A stretch of DNA of 64,000 bases from Lachnospiraceae bacterium V9D3004 (GTDB taxonomy: Bacteria; Bacillota; Clostridia; Lachnospirales; Lachnospiraceae): contig JHWW01000001.1 of the NCBI GenBank assembly GCA_000621985.1, forward strand, positions 124,001 through 188,000. The letters are read 5' to 3'. Both the position numbers and the translations under genes were made by a program. Positions within the stretch are counted from its first letter, which is position 1; each line of letters starts with the position of its first letter. Under the pieces are notes generated by a model. That model was not told where the DNA came from, searched no databases, and saw only the letters and a list, made by a program, of their open reading frames with translations. Shown here piece by piece: positions 1,466-10,142 of this stretch.

Positions 1466-1495
1466 TTGTCTAACACTATATAAAAGTGTTATAAT
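1466..1495 (+). promoter_or_regulatory. Predicted promoter of the DUF5717 operon
   Basis: TTGTCT at 1466-1471 and TATAAT at 1490-1495 are separated by 18 bases. The spacer holds a small inverted repeat (AACAC...GTGTT). The start codon lies 32 bases after the -10 box, giving a short leader. Confidence 0.6.
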
Positions 1496-1526: not shown

Positions 1527-4500
1527 ATGAACGATAAGATAGAGCAGTTTGCAAAAGGTGTGTTCGAAGAAGCTCAGACAGAGCTCATCCTTTCCGATCC
1601 GGAACTTATTCTGCAGATCGAAGAAGGACGAACAATAAGCGGAAGCTTCTATATCAGCAATGACAGGGATGTACTCATGCAGGGCATCCTTTATTCCGAT
1701 TGTCCTTATTTGACGCTGACCAGACGTGAATCCACGGGAAATGAACTGTCAGCGGATTATGAATTCTCTGCTGCCGAACTTATGGCGGGAGAGACAGTCA
1801 ATACTTGTATCCATGTTATCACAAGCTGTGGGGAAACAAAAATACCCGTATCTGTTACTGTAGATATCCCGGCAATTACCTATGAAGGTGGCTCCGTAAA
1901 GGACCTCACAGGTTTTGCCACTCTTGCAAAGGAGTCTCCCAAAGAGGCACTGAAGATATTCAAAAGCGAAGATTTTTCCAGGGTACTGCTTTACAGGGAT
2001 GTAGAGAAGCAGACACTGTATGATGCTCTTATCGGCGGTTCGGCGCCGATTCATGCAATGGAGGAATTCCTTGTTGCATCGAGAAAAAAGAACAGGATAA
2101 TTATCAGTATCGACAGGAATAATCTTAATTTCGATAATGTTGAAAAGACGATCACAGATAAGATAATCATATCAAAGAATACATGGGGAAGCGTTGAGAT
2201 ATCAATACGCAGCGATTCCGAATTCATCAAGCCTGCACATAAGAGACTCTGGACCGACAATTTTCTGGAAGACAGCATACCTCTGCTCTTCACTATCGAA
2301 CCGGATAATATGCTTCAGGGCGAGAATTCGGGCAGAATATATATCGAGACAACGCATCAGGTTTTGGAAGTAAGCATTACATGTACCGTTGCAAAGAAGA
2401 GTGCCGGCAGACAGATCCTGTCCGGACAGTATTATATAAAAGTCATGAGGGAGTTCATCAACCTCAGGAACCAGTTGATCACTCCGGTGGAATTCAGAAA
2501 CAGGATAGATGTGTTAACAACGGAATATCGCGGATCGTGTGAGGAATACAGTGATCTTGCGGAAGCATATGCAGCTATCATCACATCGGCCGGAGACATG
2601 AAGGATTATGTAAGATCCATAAGACTCAGACAGGAACCGGGATATGCCACAGACATGAAAACTGTGATGGATTATTCTATGTATCTGTATGTGCTTGCAA
2701 TGTATCACTCGGTTGTCGGAGACAGAGTTGAAACACTCAGGCTTGTAAGGATAATGAGTGATATGTATGAGAATGAATTCAATCACTGGTTTATATTCTA
2801 TCTGCTTCTTATAACAGAGCCTGAATTCAAGAACAGTCATAATGCATTTTCAAAGATTAGGGACTATATTGCAGAAGGCTGCACAAGTCCGCTCATATAC
2901 AGCGCGTTCTGTGAGATGCTGCGCGATGACAGCTCGCATATACATGAATGGAACGACAGCATGATAAGTCCTCTTGTATGGGGCGCTGAGAGAGGGCTTC
3001 TTAATCTTGAGACCGCCCAGGGGTATGCGTACCATGTGAGTAGACTCAGAGGCTTCAATCCGCTTATATACCGCAGTATGAAAAAATTATTCGATACATT
3101 CGGAACCGATGACATACTTCAGCAGATCTGTCGAATGCTCATCAATGCGGGGAAAACAGATGCGGAAGCTTTGTTCTGGTATGAAAAAGGAGTGGAAAAA
3201 CAGCTCAGGATAACACAGCTGTATGAATACTACCTCAAATCACTGCCGGGTGATGACGACAGGATAATACCTCATACGGTGCTTATGTACTTTGCACTTG
3301 ATAACAGACTGTCGGACCGCGAAAAATCAAAGCTTTTTGCTTCGGTGATAAAAGGAAAAAAGACAGACAGTGCCGCATATAAGGCATACACCGTAATGAT
3401 GTCGAATTATGCGAGAAATCAGCTTATAGAAGGTAATATTGATGCGGATCTTGCGGTGATATACGAAGACTGCATAAAACTTGATTCGGTGGACGAGACG
3501 ACTGCACATGCTCTTCCGCAGATAATGTTCCGTCAGGAGATCATTTGTACCAATCCGTGTATGGAAGCCGTATGCGTTGTCCACAGGGAACTTGAAAAAG
3601 AAGTCATCGTTCCTTTTGTGAACGGACGGGCGTACGCAGACATATATTCTTCTGATGCATTTATCTTCATGATAGACAAAAAAGGCAATCGTTACTATTA
3701 CACGGAAGATTATACAATGCGTAAACTGCTCCATCTGGATGCCTACGCCGAAAAATGTTTTGAAGTGTCTTCCGATGATGACGGTTTGCTGGCATATATG
3801 TATATAAAATGCACTAAAGACTTCAGGACCGGCGATGATGTTATCGCTATCAGGAGACTGGCTCATAAGAGGCTTAAGCTGAGGAGATTCTACAGCAGGA
3901 ACAATCTGTCGGCTCTTATATATCATTATTATGAACATGTTGACGGCGAGCGGCTTGATGAGATGCTCGAACTGCTGAATCTTGAAGAATGTGATCGTAA
4001 GAATCGCAACAAATGGATCGAACTGTATATTGTAAGAGGAATGCACATGAAGGCGCTTAAGGCTGTGAACCGTTACGGATATGCGGATATTGACAGTGCA
4101 AAGCTTGGAAAAATGTGCGAAGATCTGATACCTTATGTGGAGGATATGCCCAAAGAAGGCGACGATACTTTAAGGGATACTCTTACGATGACAGCCTGTG
4201 AAGTATTCAAAAGAGGAGGATATTCAAGACAGATCCTTGAATATCTTGCGGATACATATAAGGGAGAAAGCCGTATCATGCCGGACATCTGGAAAGCTGC
4301 TTCAGGCATAGGACTAGGTACGGTCAATTTTGAAGAGAGGATCCTTGAGAGGTTTTTATTGACCGAAGATATGATAATTACGGGATTGCCGATATTTGAA
4401 TCATATCTTGCCGAAGGAACGTCAGATACGATCAAGAAAGCTTATATATCATATGTCATGTACCTGTATATCACAAAAGAAGACGTGAGCGATATACATA

Positions 4501-5096
4501 TCGATCAGCCGCTGTGGGATTATGTTCGTGACAAAATGATGGATGAATATAACAATACATGCCTTCTTGCAAGACTTAAGGATTACAGTCTGAAGGACAA
4601 TCTGGATGAAAGCGAAAAGCTGTTTTGCGAGATAAGTCTTACGAGACTTTATAAGAGCGGCATAATAATGACATTTTACAGGAATTTTGAGAAAAAGTTG
4701 AAGGCTTATATAGGAACTTCCGACAGAGAGATACTTCAGTGCGTGGCAAGACCCGGAATACCGATGAAGATCAGATGTGTCATGACTGACGGCAGTGCGA
4801 GCATCATCAAGGCACAGGAGGTTCTTTACGGAATATATGTTAAGGATGTCATAGTATTTTCAGGCGAGAGGATCACCTATGAATTCTTCGAGGAAAAAGG
4901 CGGCAAGAAGATAGTATATGCAACCGGTAACGTCGAATACAATACGGGAGAGTCCGGGGACAATCTCGGAAGACTGGGAATGATCAACGATATGCTTGAT
5001 ACCTATAGTAAAAATGATCAGGAAGCATTATATGCTAAAATGAAGGATTATATAGTACTTGACGAGACATCAAAGGATCTGTTCACGATCCTGTGA
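1527..5096 (+). CDS. Giant DUF5717-family protein, first gene of an uncharacterised operon
   Basis: A 1189-residue protein of unknown function that I recognise as DUF5717-like, a family I know only from Lachnospiraceae and relatives. No signal peptide or membrane segment is visible, so it is probably cytoplasmic. Residues 1 to about 300 look beta-rich, as two or more immunoglobulin-like sandwiches (patterns such as GRTISGSFYISNDRD and GRIYIETTHQVLEVSITC). Residues about 300-1000 are alpha-helical and repetitive, like a TPR-type solenoid. The last 180 residues look beta-rich again. The ATG at 1527 follows AAAGGTAG. The next gene starts 38 bases downstream, followed by two more in close order. 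A scaffold role is inference from the architecture only. Confidence 0.8.
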   Translation: MNDKIEQFAKGVFEEAQTELILSDPELILQIEEGRTISGSFYISNDRDVLMQGILYSDCPYLTLTRRESTGNELSADYEFSAAELMAGETVNTCIHVITSCGETKIPVSVTVDIPAITYEGGSVKDLTGFATLAKESPKEALKIFKSEDFSRVLLYRDVEKQTLYDALIGGSAPIHAMEEFLVASRKKNRIIISIDRNNLNFDNVEKTITDKIIISKNTWGSVEISIRSDSEFIKPAHKRLWTDNFLEDSIPLLFTIEPDNMLQGENSGRIYIETTHQVLEVSITCTVAKKSAGRQILSGQYYIKVMREFINLRNQLITPVEFRNRIDVLTTEYRGSCEEYSDLAEAYAAIITSAGDMKDYVRSIRLRQEPGYATDMKTVMDYSMYLYVLAMYHSVVGDRVETLRLVRIMSDMYENEFNHWFIFYLLLITEPEFKNSHNAFSKIRDYIAEGCTSPLIYSAFCEMLRDDSSHIHEWNDSMISPLVWGAERGLLNLETAQGYAYHVSRLRGFNPLIYRSMKKLFDTFGTDDILQQICRMLINAGKTDAEALFWYEKGVEKQLRITQLYEYYLKSLPGDDDRIIPHTVLMYFALDNRLSDREKSKLFASVIKGKKTDSAAYKAYTVMMSNYARNQLIEGNIDADLAVIYEDCIKLDSVDETTAHALPQIMFRQEIICTNPCMEAVCVVHRELEKEVIVPFVNGRAYADIYSSDAFIFMIDKKGNRYYYTEDYTMRKLLHLDAYAEKCFEVSSDDDGLLAYMYIKCTKDFRTGDDVIAIRRLAHKRLKLRRFYSRNNLSALIYHYYEHVDGERLDEMLELLNLEECDRKNRNKWIELYIVRGMHMKALKAVNRYGYADIDSAKLGKMCEDLIPYVEDMPKEGDDTLRDTLTMTACEVFKRGGYSRQILEYLADTYKGESRIMPDIWKAASGIGLGTVNFEERILERFLLTEDMIITGLPIFESYLAEGTSDTIKKAYISYVMYLYITKEDVSDIHIDQPLWDYVRDKMMDEYNNTCLLARLKDYSLKDNLDESEKLFCEISLTRLYKSGIIMTFYRNFEKKLKAYIGTSDREILQCVARPGIPMKIRCVMTDGSASIIKAQEVLYGIYVKDVIVFSGERITYEFFEEKGGKKIVYATGNVEYNTGESGDNLGRLGMINDMLDTYSKNDQEALYAKMKDYIVLDETSKDLFTIL

Positions 5097-5134
5097 CGCG
5101 CAAAACAGTTACGATAAACGGGGGATATAAGTGT

Positions 5135-6379
5135 ATGGAGGAGAAATCATTGTTCATAGGTCTTGACATCGGCAATGTGGAATCAAGAATATGCTATTAT
5201 GACGAGAGCAAATATGAACCTGTGTGCATTAATGATAAAACAATTCCTACAATACTCGGGGTGAAAGATACAGGCGAATGGCTGTACGGTGAAGAAGCAC
5301 TTGAGATGCATAATGCAGGTAGGTGCGATATTATTGAAAACGGTATCAATGCCATAGCAGCCGGCGAACCTCTTATGCTTAATGAAAGGGAAGTCAAACC
5401 GGTATTTTATCTTGCAACGTTTTTGCGTAAGATATTGTCCCTCATACACGGCGCTGAGCCGGGAAAGAGGATACGAAAACTGGTAGTGACGGCAATTTCC
5501 GTCACAAAGAATCTTACCGATATACTGTATGTGGCTCTTGACAGTATAGGTATAGGCAGGGACAGGGTATGCGTGCTTAATTACAGACAGAGCTATCTGT
5601 ATTTTGTGATGAGTCAGGGAAGAGAATTCTGGCTGAACGATGTGGGAATGTTCGACTTCGGCCACGAAGGGCTTGTATATCTGCAGATCACTATGGACAG
5701 ACGAAAAAAACCTTATATAGTCGGCATCAAAGAGAAGGATTACTCGGAAGATCTTAATATGTCCATGCTTGACGAATACAGTGAAGAGAAGCTTGTGTAC
5801 GAATTCAACAATATAACGCAGAATGCGCTTCATAAGCAGATATTATCCACTCTGTATATGATAGGCCCCGGATTTGCAAGCGGATGGGCCGACGAGAGCA
5901 TGAAAAAATTATGCTCCGGCAGGCGTGTGTTCAAAGGTGTCAATCTGTATGCGGAAGGTGCCTGTTATGCAGCGAGACATCTTGCGGGTGAAGGAAATAT
6001 CGAGCCGTTTGTATACATTGATGAGAATATGATCGCTTCGCATATATCCACAATGGTATATGTGAATGCAAGTTACCAGGAGATAATCATTGCGAGAGCC
6101 GGATCGGTATGGTATGACATCGATAATTCATTTGACATAATACCCGATGATGAGATGGAGATAGGCATCAAAGTAAGCAATGTGATCACAAGAGAGAGTT
6201 CAAAACATATTATAGAATTCAACGATATAGTTTCGAGAAGACCGTCAAGAATGAGCAGGATAACGGTCAGGGTCCGGATGCAGGATATCGAGCATGTTGT
6301 CATTACTGTTAAGGATGATGGATTCGGTGAGATGTATCCGTCTTCCAACAGGATATTCGAGAGGATAATCCGGATATAA
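5135..6379 (+). CDS. Hsp70/actin-fold ATPase-like protein (DUF5716-like)
   Basis: A 414-residue protein with an actin/Hsp70 nucleotide-binding fold. FIGLDIGNVESRICYYD near the N-terminus resembles phosphate loop 1. VGMFDFGHEG in the middle resembles phosphate loop 2. GPGFASGW followed by NLYAEGACYAA resembles the adenosine motif and connecting helix of DnaK. Its C-terminal 100 residues (VRVRMQDIEHVVITVKDDGF) are beta-rich and may be a substrate- or partner-binding part. A GTG overlapping the previous stop at 5093 is possible, but ATG 5135 is preferred because GGGGGA sits nine bases upstream. It probably works with the large protein encoded before it. Chaperone-like or scaffold ATPase function is inference; ATPase activity is untested. 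Confidence 0.75.
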   Translation: MEEKSLFIGLDIGNVESRICYYDESKYEPVCINDKTIPTILGVKDTGEWLYGEEALEMHNAGRCDIIENGINAIAAGEPLMLNEREVKPVFYLATFLRKILSLIHGAEPGKRIRKLVVTAISVTKNLTDILYVALDSIGIGRDRVCVLNYRQSYLYFVMSQGREFWLNDVGMFDFGHEGLVYLQITMDRRKKPYIVGIKEKDYSEDLNMSMLDEYSEEKLVYEFNNITQNALHKQILSTLYMIGPGFASGWADESMKKLCSGRRVFKGVNLYAEGACYAARHLAGEGNIEPFVYIDENMIASHISTMVYVNASYQEIIIARAGSVWYDIDNSFDIIPDDEMEIGIKVSNVITRESSKHIIEFNDIVSRRPSRMSRITVRVRMQDIEHVVITVKDDGFGEMYPSSNRIFERIIRI

Positions 6380-6399
6380 CGGGTACAGGAGGTAGCATT

Positions 6400-7227
6400 G
6401 TGGGTAAGCTGATATTATGCAGTTCAAGAGCGGCTGTAAGACCGTACAGGTTCAGCATATCGGGAGTCGCTGTATACTCAATAGAGGAACTGTGTTATTA
6501 CATATACCATAACATATATGAGATCACGCCGGAATATTTTGATAAGGCGCTTGTGGCATGGCTCAGAAATGAACTCGGAATGACTGTTATTGCCGGCAAA
6601 CTCGAGACAATGCTTGAGATAGAGAGCAGCCTTAAAGATATGGTAATAAGCATATTGTGCAGCTGTGATTATTATGACGAAGATGAGATCAAGGCTCTTC
6701 TTGCCGTCATGAACGAGATAGAGAATCTTCCTTATCACGGAAAGCAGAAAAGAAAAGCCGATATGTATCTTCGTTACGGCAGATATACACTTGCGAAGAA
6801 GGAATATGACAGGATAATCGGCGGAGGTTATGCGGTCAATCTTACACCGAAAGAGTACGGAGATATATTGCATAATCATTCGATTGCATGTTTTTTGCTT
6901 GGAATGTACTCGGATGCTATCATGGATCTGAAGGATGCCTACAGCAGAAATAACGACAGCCGTACATTAAGACAGTATCTGTATACGCTGTTACTATGCG
7001 GCAAGAGGGATACATTTGCAAGGGAAGTACTTAATTACGGAATTGAAGAGCAGGTGTCGGAAGGGATAGTGACACTGTATAATAATGCGAAGGCCCGAGC
7101 GGAGCATTCCGGTGAGTACACCGCACTGTGCGATATGAAGCGTTATTCCACAGACGGTGAATTCAGGGAATATGCGATAGGAAAGATCAATACATGGAAA
7201 CAACAGTACAGAGAGGGAACTTATTGA
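6400..7227 (+). CDS. Helical-repeat (TPR-like) protein of the DUF5717 operon
   Basis: A 275-residue protein that I do not recognise by family. It starts with GTG behind a full AGGAGGT, 21 bases after the preceding stop, so translation is probably coupled. Residues about 110-240 contain pairs of helices with TPR-like spacing (DMYLRYGRYTLAKKEYDRII, then HNHSIACFLLGMYSDAIMDL). The N-terminal 100 residues are acidic and helical. There is no signal peptide or membrane segment. Its role is probably as an adaptor between the Hsp70-like protein and the other operon products; this is inferred from operon position and repeat type. Confidence 0.7.
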   Translation: MGKLILCSSRAAVRPYRFSISGVAVYSIEELCYYIYHNIYEITPEYFDKALVAWLRNELGMTVIAGKLETMLEIESSLKDMVISILCSCDYYDEDEIKALLAVMNEIENLPYHGKQKRKADMYLRYGRYTLAKKEYDRIIGGGYAVNLTPKEYGDILHNHSIACFLLGMYSDAIMDLKDAYSRNNDSRTLRQYLYTLLLCGKRDTFAREVLNYGIEEQVSEGIVTLYNNAKARAEHSGEYTALCDMKRYSTDGEFREYAIGKINTWKQQYREGTY

Positions 7228-7263
7228 TAACCGGTTTAACGGTTGTGTCAGAGGTAGATTTTT

Positions 7264-8562
7264 ATGGGTTTATTTGGACGAAAACGCAGTAAAAAGAATA
7301 AAGAAGTGTATAATATCGAAGAAGTATTACGCAACATAGATAAAGGTATACCGATAACGGAATTCGATACTTCGGATGATACTGCTGACGGTGATGATAA
7401 TACTTCTGCCGATGAGATATACAGATCCGATGCAGTAAAGCTTGATGATACCGGACTCGGCAAAAAGCCGACTATGGATGATGTCCGCAAATATATCGAT
7501 ACCGCCGGTTCGCGTATTGCCATGATGCATGCCCAGAATGACAAGCTTCGCGGTGAGTACGAGAGCGTTACCGAATATCTGAAGGATATTCAGATGATCG
7601 AATCGATAGAAGGAAAAGAAAAGACAAGACTCAATTCATATGCATATGATATTGTAAAAAAAGAAGAAGAGAACAGAAAAAGACTCGGTTACGAACCCGA
7701 TATAAAAGATGCTCATTATAAGACCATGAAGCTCTACGAAGAGTCAATGAACCGTGAGCTTATCAACATGAAGAAAAAAGAGCTTTATCAGGCCGACATA
7801 AAAAATGATCTGAAATATCTCGAGGAAGAAAAAGAAAAATTATATGATGAACAGGATGAACTTCTTGGAAAGACCATGAACATCAGGGGAATATCTATCG
7901 GTGGCGGTGTTCTTATCGTATCACTCATGATCCTGTTCGGTGTTTTGTGGGTTGTGGCAGGACAGGATATGACTATACCTTATATACTTTTGATATTTCT
8001 GTCGGGACTGCTCATATTGTATATATTCATGGGAATGAGAACCAGCAGATATGAGATAATACTTACGGATAAGAAGCTCAGTAAGTGTATCAATCTGCTT
8101 AACAGCGTTAAGATAAAATACGTTAATAATACGGCGTTGCTTGACTATATGTGCAGCAAATACAAAGTAAGCAATTCTGTTGAGCTTGAACATGTATGGC
8201 AGCAGTATATTAAGCTCAGGGAAAATGAAGAAGCTCTTTCGGCAAATGCTGAAGATCTTGTTGTCTTAAAGAAAAGTCTGACCGATTTATTGGAAAAATA
8301 TGGATTGAAAGACACTTCCATATGGGTCGTCCAGGCGAAAGCTCTTCTTGATGAAAAAGAGATGGTGGAAGTAAGACACAGTCTCAATGTCAGAAGACAG
8401 AAATTAAGAAAACAGATAGGTTATAATGATGATCAGATCCGTAAGGATTCTCTGATCATTCAGAAATTTCTGAAGAAGAAGCCTCAGCTTCGCGAACAGA
8501 TCAAAGATGTAATGACAAGATACGGTATAGAACATATTGTCATACAAGCTCTGAGACAATAA
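7264..8562 (+). CDS. Two-TM coiled-coil protein, last gene of the DUF5717 operon
   Basis: A 432-residue protein with no family I can name. It starts with a basic MGLFGRKRSKKNK patch, then an acidic low-complexity stretch (residues 35-60). A charged coiled coil spans about 85-205. Two adjacent membrane helices follow (about 213-232 and 237-257), and a second helical, charged region runs to the end. Both large parts are predicted on the same, probably cytoplasmic, side. AGAGGT lies about nine bases before the ATG. The gene ends the operon and overlaps the convergent thiN by 23 bases. It may anchor the soluble operon proteins to the membrane; this is inference. Confidence 0.7.
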   Translation: MGLFGRKRSKKNKEVYNIEEVLRNIDKGIPITEFDTSDDTADGDDNTSADEIYRSDAVKLDDTGLGKKPTMDDVRKYIDTAGSRIAMMHAQNDKLRGEYESVTEYLKDIQMIESIEGKEKTRLNSYAYDIVKKEEENRKRLGYEPDIKDAHYKTMKLYEESMNRELINMKKKELYQADIKNDLKYLEEEKEKLYDEQDELLGKTMNIRGISIGGGVLIVSLMILFGVLWVVAGQDMTIPYILLIFLSGLLILYIFMGMRTSRYEIILTDKKLSKCINLLNSVKIKYVNNTALLDYMCSKYKVSNSVELEHVWQQYIKLRENEEALSANAEDLVVLKKSLTDLLEKYGLKDTSIWVVQAKALLDEKEMVEVRHSLNVRRQKLRKQIGYNDDQIRKDSLIIQKFLKKKPQLREQIKDVMTRYGIEHIVIQALRQ

Positions 8563-9292
8563 TGAGAGTGCCGCGCTTTACACTGATTGAATAATTCTGA
8601 TCCAGGTAACGGTTGCTTGTGCCAAGTGCGTAAGTATTGGTAAGATCGATATTATCGACATTGTATTCAAGGCCTTTTATTGTGACCTGTTTCGAACGAT
8701 CCGAATGAGAGAACACGGATATATATCTCACCGGGTCCGGACAAAAAAGTGAGAGACATCTGTCTTTTACGGAATGATCATCAAAGGTCAGCTCGGAATC
8801 GGTTATCGCCGTGATGACCTGTCCGTTTCCGATAAGATAACCCCTGCAGCCTTCTTTTGAAAGCCATGTGATAAGTTCGATATTGGCAAGAGTGTGGTCG
8901 ATGCGGCCGCCTGTTCCGCCATAGATAACGAACGTATCATATCCGGCTTTTTTTCCTTCAAGAACTCCAAGATGCATATCAGTATAATCTTTTTCGGGCG
9001 GGAAGCGAAGAACTCCGTAGCTTGCGGATCTTAAGTTGTCAGAAGTACCGGATTGACAGGACTTATTCTCTGCTACCGAATGAACCGTATCCGTGGTCTG
9101 TGTTGAGGTGAATGCAGAAGGATCGCATACCGAGTCAAAATCACCTATGACAAGATCGGGAACGATGCCGCATTTTACAATGTGATCGTAGCCTCCGTCA
9201 ACAGCGATAATATAATCATCTTCTCTTATATCTACAGGACAGGTGCCGTCGTGATCGCCGGCACCGTACAAAAAACATATATTATGATTCAT
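8540..9292 (-). CDS. thiN: Thiamine pyrophosphokinase with an insertion
   Basis: Transfers pyrophosphate from ATP to thiamine, giving thiamine pyrophosphate in the salvage route. Motifs include IIAVDGGYDHIVKCGIVPD, VIGDFDSV, EKDYTDMHLGV and YGGTGGRIDHTLANI, all typical of the family. At 250 residues it is about 30-40 longer than usual. The extra part is a Ser/Thr-rich insertion of roughly 35 residues between the GDFDSV and EKDYTD motifs. The ATG at 9292 is preferred because GAAGGTG lies eight bases upstream; an ATG at 9325 would overlap the preceding mrp-like gene. The 3' end overlaps the convergent operon. I saw no TPP riboswitch nearby. Confidence 0.88.
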   Translation of the reverse strand: MNHNICFLYGAGDHDGTCPVDIREDDYIIAVDGGYDHIVKCGIVPDLVIGDFDSVCDPSAFTSTQTTDTVHSVAENKSCQSGTSDNLRSASYGVLRFPPEKDYTDMHLGVLEGKKAGYDTFVIYGGTGGRIDHTLANIELITWLSKEGCRGYLIGNGQVITAITDSELTFDDHSVKDRCLSLFCPDPVRYISVFSHSDRSKQVTIKGLEYNVDNIDLTNTYALGTSNRYLDQNYSISVKRGTLIIVSELV

Positions 9293-9308
9293 ATATCTGT
9301 CACCTTCA

Positions 9309-10142
9309 TCATGCACCCAAGCCATTTACAGCGTCGATTGCGGGAACAAGCCAGTCGGAATTGTAGTCTTCTATAGCACCTTCATCAACGGCTTTTGCGA
9401 TTGAAGGATCGATAGGAATTCTTCCAAGGACCGGAAGAGAATATTCTGCCGCTATCTCATTAAGGTGGCTTTCACCGAATATCGGGATCTGTTTTCCACA
9501 GTCGGGGCATGATACATAGCTCATATTTTCTACAATACCGATGATAGGAATGTTCATGGCTTTTGCCATCTTAACAGCTTTTTCGACGATCATCGATACA
9601 AGCTCCTGAGGAGAAGTCACAACGATTATTCCGTCTACCGGAAGTGACTGGAATACCGTTAACGGCACGTCTCCTGTGCCCGGCGGCATATCAACAAGAA
9701 GAGTATCTATATCTTTCCATATGACATCTGTCCAAAACTGTTTTACGGTGCCTGCAATGATCGGACCGCGCCAGATAACGGGATCGGATGTGTTCTCAAG
9801 CAGAAGATTGATTGACATCAGATCTATTCCGGTTTTGGTTGTAACAGGTATAATACCGTCATTGTTACCGGTGGCTTTTTCTGTGATTCCGAACGCTTTT
9901 GGTATTGACGGACCGGTTATGTCGGCATCAAGAATACCGGTCTTTTTGCCTGAACGCTGTAATCCCGTAGCAAGTAGCCCTGTAACGAGGGACTTTCCTA
10001 CGCCGCCCTTTCCACTGACAATTCCTATTACTTTCTTAATGCTGCTGTTTGGATTGCATGGAGCAAGAAAACTCTGGGGAGCGGTTCTGTCACTGCAACT
10101 CGATCCGCAGGATGAACAGTCATGTGAACAACTATCACTCAT
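9309..10142 (-). CDS. apbC: Mrp/NBP35-type Fe-S cluster carrier ATPase
   Basis: A 277-residue P-loop ATPase of the Mrp/ApbC/NBP35 family, which binds and transfers iron-sulfur clusters in the cytoplasm. The N-terminus is cysteine-rich (CSHDCSSCGSSC, residues 4-15). The deviant Walker A is GKGGVGKS, followed by DADITGPSIPKAFG and the DMPPGTGD switch. A CPDC pair near residue 212 is the usual cluster-binding site at the dimer interface. It precedes thiN with a 17-base gap to the preferred thiN start, so the two are probably co-transcribed. AGGTTTATT precedes the ATG (GGAGG 8 bases upstream). Confidence 0.9.
   Translation of the reverse strand: MSDSCSHDCSSCGSSCSDRTAPQSFLAPCNPNSSIKKVIGIVSGKGGVGKSLVTGLLATGLQRSGKKTGILDADITGPSIPKAFGITEKATGNNDGIIPVTTKTGIDLMSINLLLENTSDPVIWRGPIIAGTVKQFWTDVIWKDIDTLLVDMPPGTGDVPLTVFQSLPVDGIIVVTSPQELVSMIVEKAVKMAKAMNIPIIGIVENMSYVSCPDCGKQIPIFGESHLNEIAAEYSLPVLGRIPIDPSIAKAVDEGAIEDYNSDWLVPAIDAVNGLGA

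Follow-up and report, generated by a model that had tools for sequence, protein, structure and literature searches.

A four-gene operon and its spread

The DNA that we analyzed (the window) is a stretch of 64,000 nucleotides from Lachnospiraceae bacterium V9D3004 (GenBank assembly GCA_000621985.1, contig JHWW01000001.1, positions 124,001 to 188,000). Our subject is four genes near its start, which all lie on the forward strand with gaps of 38, 20, and 36 bases between their open reading frames (ORFs), as a preliminary description of this DNA had said. Gene 1 (1527–5096) encodes a putative scaffold protein of 1189 amino acids; gene 2 (5135–6379), a putative pseudo-Hsp70 of 414 amino acids; gene 3 (6400–7227, with a GTG start), a tetratricopeptide repeat (TPR) protein of 275 amino acids; and gene 4 (7264–8562), an accessory membrane protein of 432 amino acids with two transmembrane stretches. 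We propose that they encode a complex derived from chaperones, in which gene 2 is a relative of Hsp70 that has lost its catalytic residues. We count gene 2 from the ATG at 5135; the mechanical ORF opens at a GTG at 5093. A purine-rich stretch precedes each of the four starts.

Gene 1 matches two Pfam families of DUF5717 (PF18984, E = 2.6e-229; PF18983, E = 1.1e-59), the name that it had been given, and gene 2 matches DUF5716_C (PF18980, E = 2.7e-91). The scores compare with Pfam's curated cut-offs as follows: 763.8 and 202.6 bits against 25 for the DUF5717 domains, and 306 against 34.7 bits for DUF5716. Gene 3 has weak TPR hits (TPR_14, E = 0.013), which agrees with its description as TPR-like. 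Gene 4 has no Pfam match over a family's cut-off, and simple hydropathy finds its two hydrophobic stretches near residues 214–232 and 238–256. A scan of the four genes against NCBIfam gave no match over a cut-off.

The AlphaFold2 model of gene 1 (pLDDT 86.8, pTM 0.64) alternates beta-sandwiches and alpha-solenoids, as had been predicted. The first half has a beta-sandwich (residues 20–124), helices (127–184), a second beta-sandwich (193–288), and an alpha-solenoid (294–667); the second half has a beta region (669–733), another alpha-solenoid (738–1054), a further beta region (1068–1137), and C-terminal helices. In structure comparisons of the model, the N-terminal beta-sandwiches match domains of the PapD/ASH type. 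The ciliary central pair supplies their best two-domain matches, proteins of the ASH/HYDIN type, and this assembly also contains HSP70A (chain 7n6g_6K); the likeness is probably just a shared common fold. Beyond these sandwiches, DUF5717 matches a flagellar scaffold, Ski3, Ctr9, and IFT-A. Because these matches have high root-mean-square deviations and low TM-scores, we read them only as indicating a long alpha-solenoid.

The window's family, Lachnospiraceae, ranks among the main bacterial families found in the mammalian gut. Among 200 genomes of the family, one per genus, DUF5717_N is found in 196 and DUF5716_C in 195, mostly as a single copy. Two genomes that have neither (G029 and G091, which are 93% and 98% complete) are possible real losses. 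With gene 1 in 196 of 200 genera, the operon likely does something basic for the cell.

To describe gene order, we used 82 loci from the family: the window and 81 others, which were picked from the best matches on long enough contigs. Counts over these loci are biased towards intact operons; the genome-level counts above do not have that bias. Genes 1–3 are together in 80 of the 82 loci. The two exceptions are L132, whose genes 2, 3, and 4 are on another contig (L214), and L158, where gene 3 was not found. In every pair of neighbouring genes that we found, both share a strand. Taking the most upstream starts, the spacing is −60 to 200 bases in 79 of 81 pairs of genes 1 and 2, in 75 of 78 pairs of genes 2 and 3, and in 38 of 38 pairs of genes 3 and 4. 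This conserved spacing and strand argue for an operon, not chance. Gene 4 is present in only 38 of the 82 loci, so it is not part of the core. The preliminary description named rarity of this arrangement in related genomes as a refuting condition; the operon passed that test. In two genera, genes 2 and 3 form a single ORF (709 amino acids in L116 and 685 in L153). These fusions appear to be independent, because the nearest relatives of the two loci differ (L111 and L136) and each has two genes.

Outside Lachnospiraceae, the operon is confined to the same order in the genomes that we sampled. In a sample of the class, DUF5717_N is over its cut-off in 10 of 291 genomes, all from the window's family among the matches listed, and the 281 genomes from other families have no match over the cut-off and one weak match below it. 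In a sample of the phylum, DUF5717_N is found in 2 of 199 genomes, both from the window's family. In a sample of 295 genomes of the order, 48 genomes of Lachnospiraceae have both DUF5717 and DUF5716. DUF5717_N matches in 97 of the other 247 genomes, of which 89 have both families, 8 have DUF5717 only, 5 have DUF5716 only, and 145 have neither (Fisher p = 9e-51 for co-occurrence across the order, ignoring relatedness). The 89 include G637, which is labelled as another family (f85) and has the reduced operon (L213); it may be a misplaced contig from the window's family.

The preliminary description gave the operon one promoter. A promoter-like site is indeed present upstream of gene 1 (1466–1495, forward strand; TTGTCT-18-TATAAT with TG before the −10, 10/12 in a consensus scan), but such matches are frequent in the window (37 found, against 28.4 ± 4.7 in shuffled sequences), so it carries no weight on its own. 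The upstream neighbour is purA (15–1232). Between purA and the operon is a palindrome some 105 bases long (1330–1440), with perfect arms of 19 bases (1360–1378 and 1404–1422) and relatives at 14 other places in the same genome; it is a small dispersed repeat of the repetitive extragenic palindrome (REP) or miniature inverted-repeat transposable element (MITE) type. Downstream are a convergent thiamin pyrophosphokinase gene (8540–9325, reverse strand), whose end overlaps the 3' end of gene 4 by 23 bases (8540–8562), and then a Mrp/NUBPL-type gene. An Rfam scan of the window found three tRNAs only. Allowing up to 3 mismatches, we found no CIRCE site (for heat-shock control by HrcA) in the window. 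We did not find one around the genome's own dnaK either (that stretch, L212, begins inside its first gene, so that the upstream region lies outside it), and the absence in the window therefore says nothing about heat-shock control. Purine genes (purA/B/C/F) lie near the operon in 36 of the 82 family loci (13–19 kb each), as compared to 0 of 19 loci that we fetched from other families of the order (the sister loci). A class I/II aminotransferase is nearby in 41 of 82 family loci and 1 of 19 sister loci. We considered a functional link to purine synthesis and rejected it; we read the pur neighbourhood as inherited position.

Gene 2 has an Hsp70 fold without the catalytic residues

Gene 2 had been described as an ATPase with an Hsp70 fold and recognisable nucleotide-binding loops. 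The fold stands: the predicted structure of DUF5716 (pLDDT 96) is that of Hsp70, and all 50 of the matches listed in a fold comparison are Hsp70 relatives, with Ssz1 among them. In the model, residues 1 to about 283 form a degenerate nucleotide-binding domain (NBD), which is short in the region of subdomain IIB. A beta-sandwich (about 292–413) sits where the beta part of the substrate-binding domain (SBD-beta) would be. There is no alpha-helical lid; the beta-sandwich is the last element before the C-terminus at residue 414. A profile search of the PDB with DUF5716 finds DnaK (1.6e-7). The sequence of gene 2 on its own has no match to the HSP70 family in Pfam.

The loops and the ATPase activity are not supported. 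As catalytic residues we counted K70, E171, and T199 (numbered as in E. coli DnaK), with columns placed by motif on the genome's own DnaK. Our residue counts exclude duplicates (one organism present as two entries) and one broken gene from a related operon, described below. None of the three residues is kept in 78 of 80 DUF5716 sequences, and one is kept in the other 2. By position, T11, K70, and E171 are each present in 0 of 80 and T199 in 2 of 80. In gene 2 of the window, counting from the ATG at 5135, the positions of T11, T12, K70, E171, T199, and G342 are occupied by N14, V15, I71, Y150, G179, and P245. The residues that hold the nucleotide are mostly gone as well: 37 of the 80 sequences retain D194, 1 retains G342, and none retains K270 (there is a gap in all 80). 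So a nucleotide pocket was not found at the level of sequence. DUF5716 does keep D8 (67/80), the glycine of the adenosine motif (G341, 79/80), and the glycine and alanine of ALGA (80/80). Judged from its sequence, DUF5716 is homologous to the Hsp70 chaperones but, by the features that we tested, is not a working member of the family.

A larger operon in sister families

Other families of the order have a larger operon, with the gene order DUF5717 – H1 – GrpE fusion – H2 – H3 – H4 – TPR. H1 and H3 are Hsp70 proteins of about 558 and 546 amino acids, H2 is a divergent Hsp70 of about 500–545 amino acids, and H4 is an Hsp70 with a C-terminal vWA domain (about 691 amino acids; L084:11518–13677). 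The GrpE fusion protein has about 510–655 amino acids (L084:6376–8313), with GrpE at its C-terminal end (E = 1.4e-14 in L084); its N-terminal part is fast-evolving. DUF5717 is one ORF of about 1330 amino acids in some sister genomes and two adjacent ORFs of about 400 and 900 amino acids in others, an indication that the N-terminal beta-sandwiches have repeatedly been split from the solenoid or fused to it. The TPR protein has about 388 amino acids. A hidden Markov model of gene 3's own family finds it in 15 of the 19 sister loci (E = 3e-35 to 1e-21). A conserved stretch before the TPRs of gene 3 (PY...YS.EEL.YY, window 6400–6600) is common to the sister families and is not recognised by Pfam. 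Homologs of gene 4 close the larger operon in L084, L088, and L209.

All seven gene types are together in 15 of the 19 sister loci. Among named genomes, we found 49 loci with the GrpE fusion, and all seven types are together in 15 of these. The carriers are Defluviitalea phaphyphila Alg1 (L169), Defluviitaleaceae, one member of Vallitaleaceae, 'Candidatus Epulonipiscium', and unclassified metagenome-assembled genomes. Many of the incomplete loci are at contig ends, and the order is constant among the genes found. Some loci, among them L095, L102, L173, L181, L189, and L205, have only a few of the genes together despite flanking sequence on both sides, so the larger operon has been broken up in a portion of the lineages. 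A Pfam scan of the nine genes of L084 found no J-domain, and ten flanking ORFs from nine sister loci belong to unrelated families. We also looked for the GrpE fusion beyond this order. In the class sample, 40 of 291 genomes gave matches, which we rejected as ordinary GrpE: the 40 listed lie within profile positions 433–612, which is the GrpE end, in frames of 170–335 amino acids.

In the 82 loci of Lachnospiraceae, we found neither H1 nor the GrpE fusion, the models for H3 and H2 match only DUF5716, and the model for H4 has a single weak match (an ORF in L119, 5e-08). That the window's operon has no GrpE was noted in the preliminary description and is correct. Since a GrpE fusion is part of this operon in the sister families, its absence is probably a loss. 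Locus L088, from family f81, has the larger operon with a GrpE gene of only 279 amino acids, and both its H4 and its TPR gene are split into two ORFs; it could be an intermediate or the result of assembly errors. Its broken H4 is the gene that was left out of the residue counts, and it was also left out of the Hsp70 tree.

DUF5716 is a reduced ortholog of H2. In the Hsp70 tree, H1, H3, H4, and DUF5716 each fall on one side of a branch with support of 100, and H2 of L088 is sister to all of DUF5716 (100/100). The tree of DUF5717 places L088 alike, and the groups of sister families are similar. Comparing profiles, DUF5716 matches H2 (E = 1.4e-50) and, less strongly, H3 (E = 2.6e-29); with H3, hhalign gives a probability of 99.8 over 412 columns, which is the whole length. 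The orthology of DUF5716 and H2 is well supported by trees, profiles, and gene order.

The larger operon also suggests how the catalytic site decayed. All three catalytic residues are kept in H1 (39/39), H3 (37/37), and H4 (29/29). H2 has none of them in 44 of 54 sequences and one in the other 10. H2 retains several nucleotide-holding residues (D194 in 53/54, G342 in 52/54, and K270 in 45/54) that DUF5716 has mostly lost, so the decay seems to have had two steps, with catalysis lost first and then binding. Mean column identity is 78% for H3, 46% for H2, and 29% for DUF5716. It is simpler to take the larger operon as the ancestral form, and from this we infer that the direction was loss. If so, the larger operon, locus L088, and the reduced operon would form a natural series from an ATP-driven chaperone to a pseudo-enzyme scaffold.

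Proposed role and comparison with known systems

We propose, with moderate confidence, that the operon encodes a reduced complex derived from chaperones: an ATP-independent scaffold with an Ssz1-like pseudo-Hsp70, left after the loss of three Hsp70s and GrpE. The common ancestor would have had an ATP-driven machine with several Hsp70s and GrpE on a scaffold of DUF5717 and TPR proteins. In Lachnospiraceae the ATP-driven parts would have disappeared, while the pseudo-Hsp70, the scaffold, and the TPR protein stayed, as did the membrane protein in about half of the loci. The pseudo-Hsp70 most likely does its work without hydrolysing ATP, as Ssz1 does in the ribosome-associated complex (RAC) of eukaryotes. 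Its SBD-beta-like sandwich might keep a more or less permanent grip on a partner segment that belongs to DUF5717 or the TPR protein, and the solenoids would hold client proteins or pass them to the housekeeping DnaK and GrpE. Action at the membrane would be expected only in carriers of gene 4. The evidence for the relationship and for the missing catalytic residues is good; the scaffold or holdase mechanism and any hand-over to DnaK are what we infer. The preliminary description's suggestion of a multi-protein machine remains plausible, and it is made likelier by the two fusions of genes 2 and 3, the co-occurrence across the order, and the Hsp70/GrpE set in the relatives' operon.

Several observations weigh against our proposal. 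There is no J-domain protein in the window's operon, as had been noted, nor in L084, so the analogy to RAC is incomplete. The retention of D194 and D8 in some or most of DUF5716 means that residual nucleotide binding is possible, and one catalytic residue is kept in a minority of H2 (10/54) and DUF5716 (2/80) sequences. The Hsp70 tree carries a long-branch warning, and so the orthology leans also on synteny and the profile comparison. Some sister loci (for example L173, L181, L189, and L205) hold only part of the operon despite having sequence on both sides, so that in the sister families it does not always form a single unit. Support from fusions comes from two cases among 82 and does not include gene 1 or gene 4. 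Finally, gene 4 is absent from 44 of the 82 family loci.

We also considered that the complex might be an adaptor that delivers clients to the housekeeping DnaK/DnaJ/GrpE, collecting them, in carriers of gene 4, at the membrane. The genome has one full-length DnaK and one GrpE, both located elsewhere than the operon, and these are obvious possible partners under our proposal as well; two further partial matches to the HSP70 profile are weak (7.8e-15 and 1.3e-5). TPRs and solenoids are typical folds for adaptors, and the analogous Ssz1 works with a partner Hsp70 (PMC10191838). No evidence ties the operon to dnaK, however. Also, bacterial DnaK is not known to have the EEVD tail that eukaryotic TPR co-chaperones read. 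We consider this explanation unlikely.

Less likely still, DUF5716 might bind nucleotide, and perhaps slowly hydrolyse it, by means of unusual residues, which would make it a scaffold-bound switch gated by nucleotide. The fold is intact, D8, G341, and the glycine and alanine of ALGA are retained, and H2 has more of the pocket. This seems inconsistent with the complete absence of K70, E171, T11, and K270 from the 80 sequences and the near absence of T199 and G342.

A defence or conflict system is very improbable. The parts of the larger operon do resemble theme 2 of the GAP1-N2 GTPase systems, with HSP70, GrpE, and FNIII-TPR proteins (PMC7159879). But Pfam found no GAP1 or TRAFAC GTPase in the nine L084 genes, in the ten ORFs that flank nine of the sister loci, or in our four genes together with the neighbour upstream and the next two downstream; these scans covered part of the flanks. 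PADLOC has no match for the four window genes, and three Hsp70s of L084 match one PADLOC candidate model weakly (4e-05 to 5.5e-09), as expected from shared Hsp70 sequence. Near-universal presence with a fixed gene order is unlike patchy defence islands. Equally doubtful is a cytoskeletal or cell-division protein like actin, MreB, or FtsA on a membrane scaffold: the NBD of Hsp70 belongs to the actin-like superfamily and gene 4 is a membrane protein, but DUF5716 has the Hsp70 beta-sandwich after the NBD, is orthologous to one of the larger operon's Hsp70s, and has only Hsp70 relatives among the 50 structural matches listed (which does not exclude families beyond those 50).

A broader form of our proposal is more tentative, and we would rate it somewhat short of probable. 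In it, all of Lachnospiraceae would have turned an ATP-driven machine of several Hsp70s, GrpE, and vWA into a passive, nucleotide-independent pseudo-chaperone scaffold that holds clients, by losing every ATPase, and would have kept the remainder, with hardly an exception, as core equipment of the cell. This would be a bacterial counterpart of the Ssz1-type complexes, and the parent machine would be an undescribed chaperone system of the sister families. From the comparison we would expect no ATP hydrolysis by DUF5716, a stable complex of DUF5716, the TPR protein, and DUF5717, and a machine with three intact Hsp70s in Defluviitalea.

The DUF5717 and DUF5716 families, to which genes 1 and 2 belong, are known in Pfam by name only. 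In the literature that we searched, we found no description of an operon with them; DUF5717 and the three Pfam accessions are mentioned nowhere, and the sole mention of DUF5716 is off-topic by its title and the start of its abstract. Among the papers listed for essential genes of Lachnospiraceae, for degenerate or lidless Hsp70s, and for Hsp70 in Defluviitalea, none concerned the reduced or the larger operon.

Among characterized proteins, Ssz1 is our model for the pseudo-Hsp70. Ssz1 binds ATP but does not hydrolyse it, and it holds a segment of its partner as a pseudo-substrate (PMC10191838). In contrast, DUF5716 has lost most residues of the nucleotide site, is short in the IIB region, and has no gene for a J-protein partner in its operon: no Zuotin-like J-domain was found in the four genes or in the nine L084 genes, in a search that did not extend to the rest of the genome. 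DUF5716 is also a bacterial ortholog group of its own, with no known link to the ribosome. DnaK shares the Hsp70 fold and is homologous, and the larger operon has intact Hsp70s and a GrpE domain; the window's operon differs in having no GrpE, J-protein, intact catalytic site, or lid. By its list of parts, the nearest described system is the HSP70/GrpE theme of the GAP1-N2 systems, which combines HSP70, GrpE, an HSP70 without the SBD, and an FNIII/TPR protein (PMC7159879). The larger operon differs from it in having four Hsp70s, one of them with vWA, and in corresponding to an operon that is nearly universal in Lachnospiraceae.

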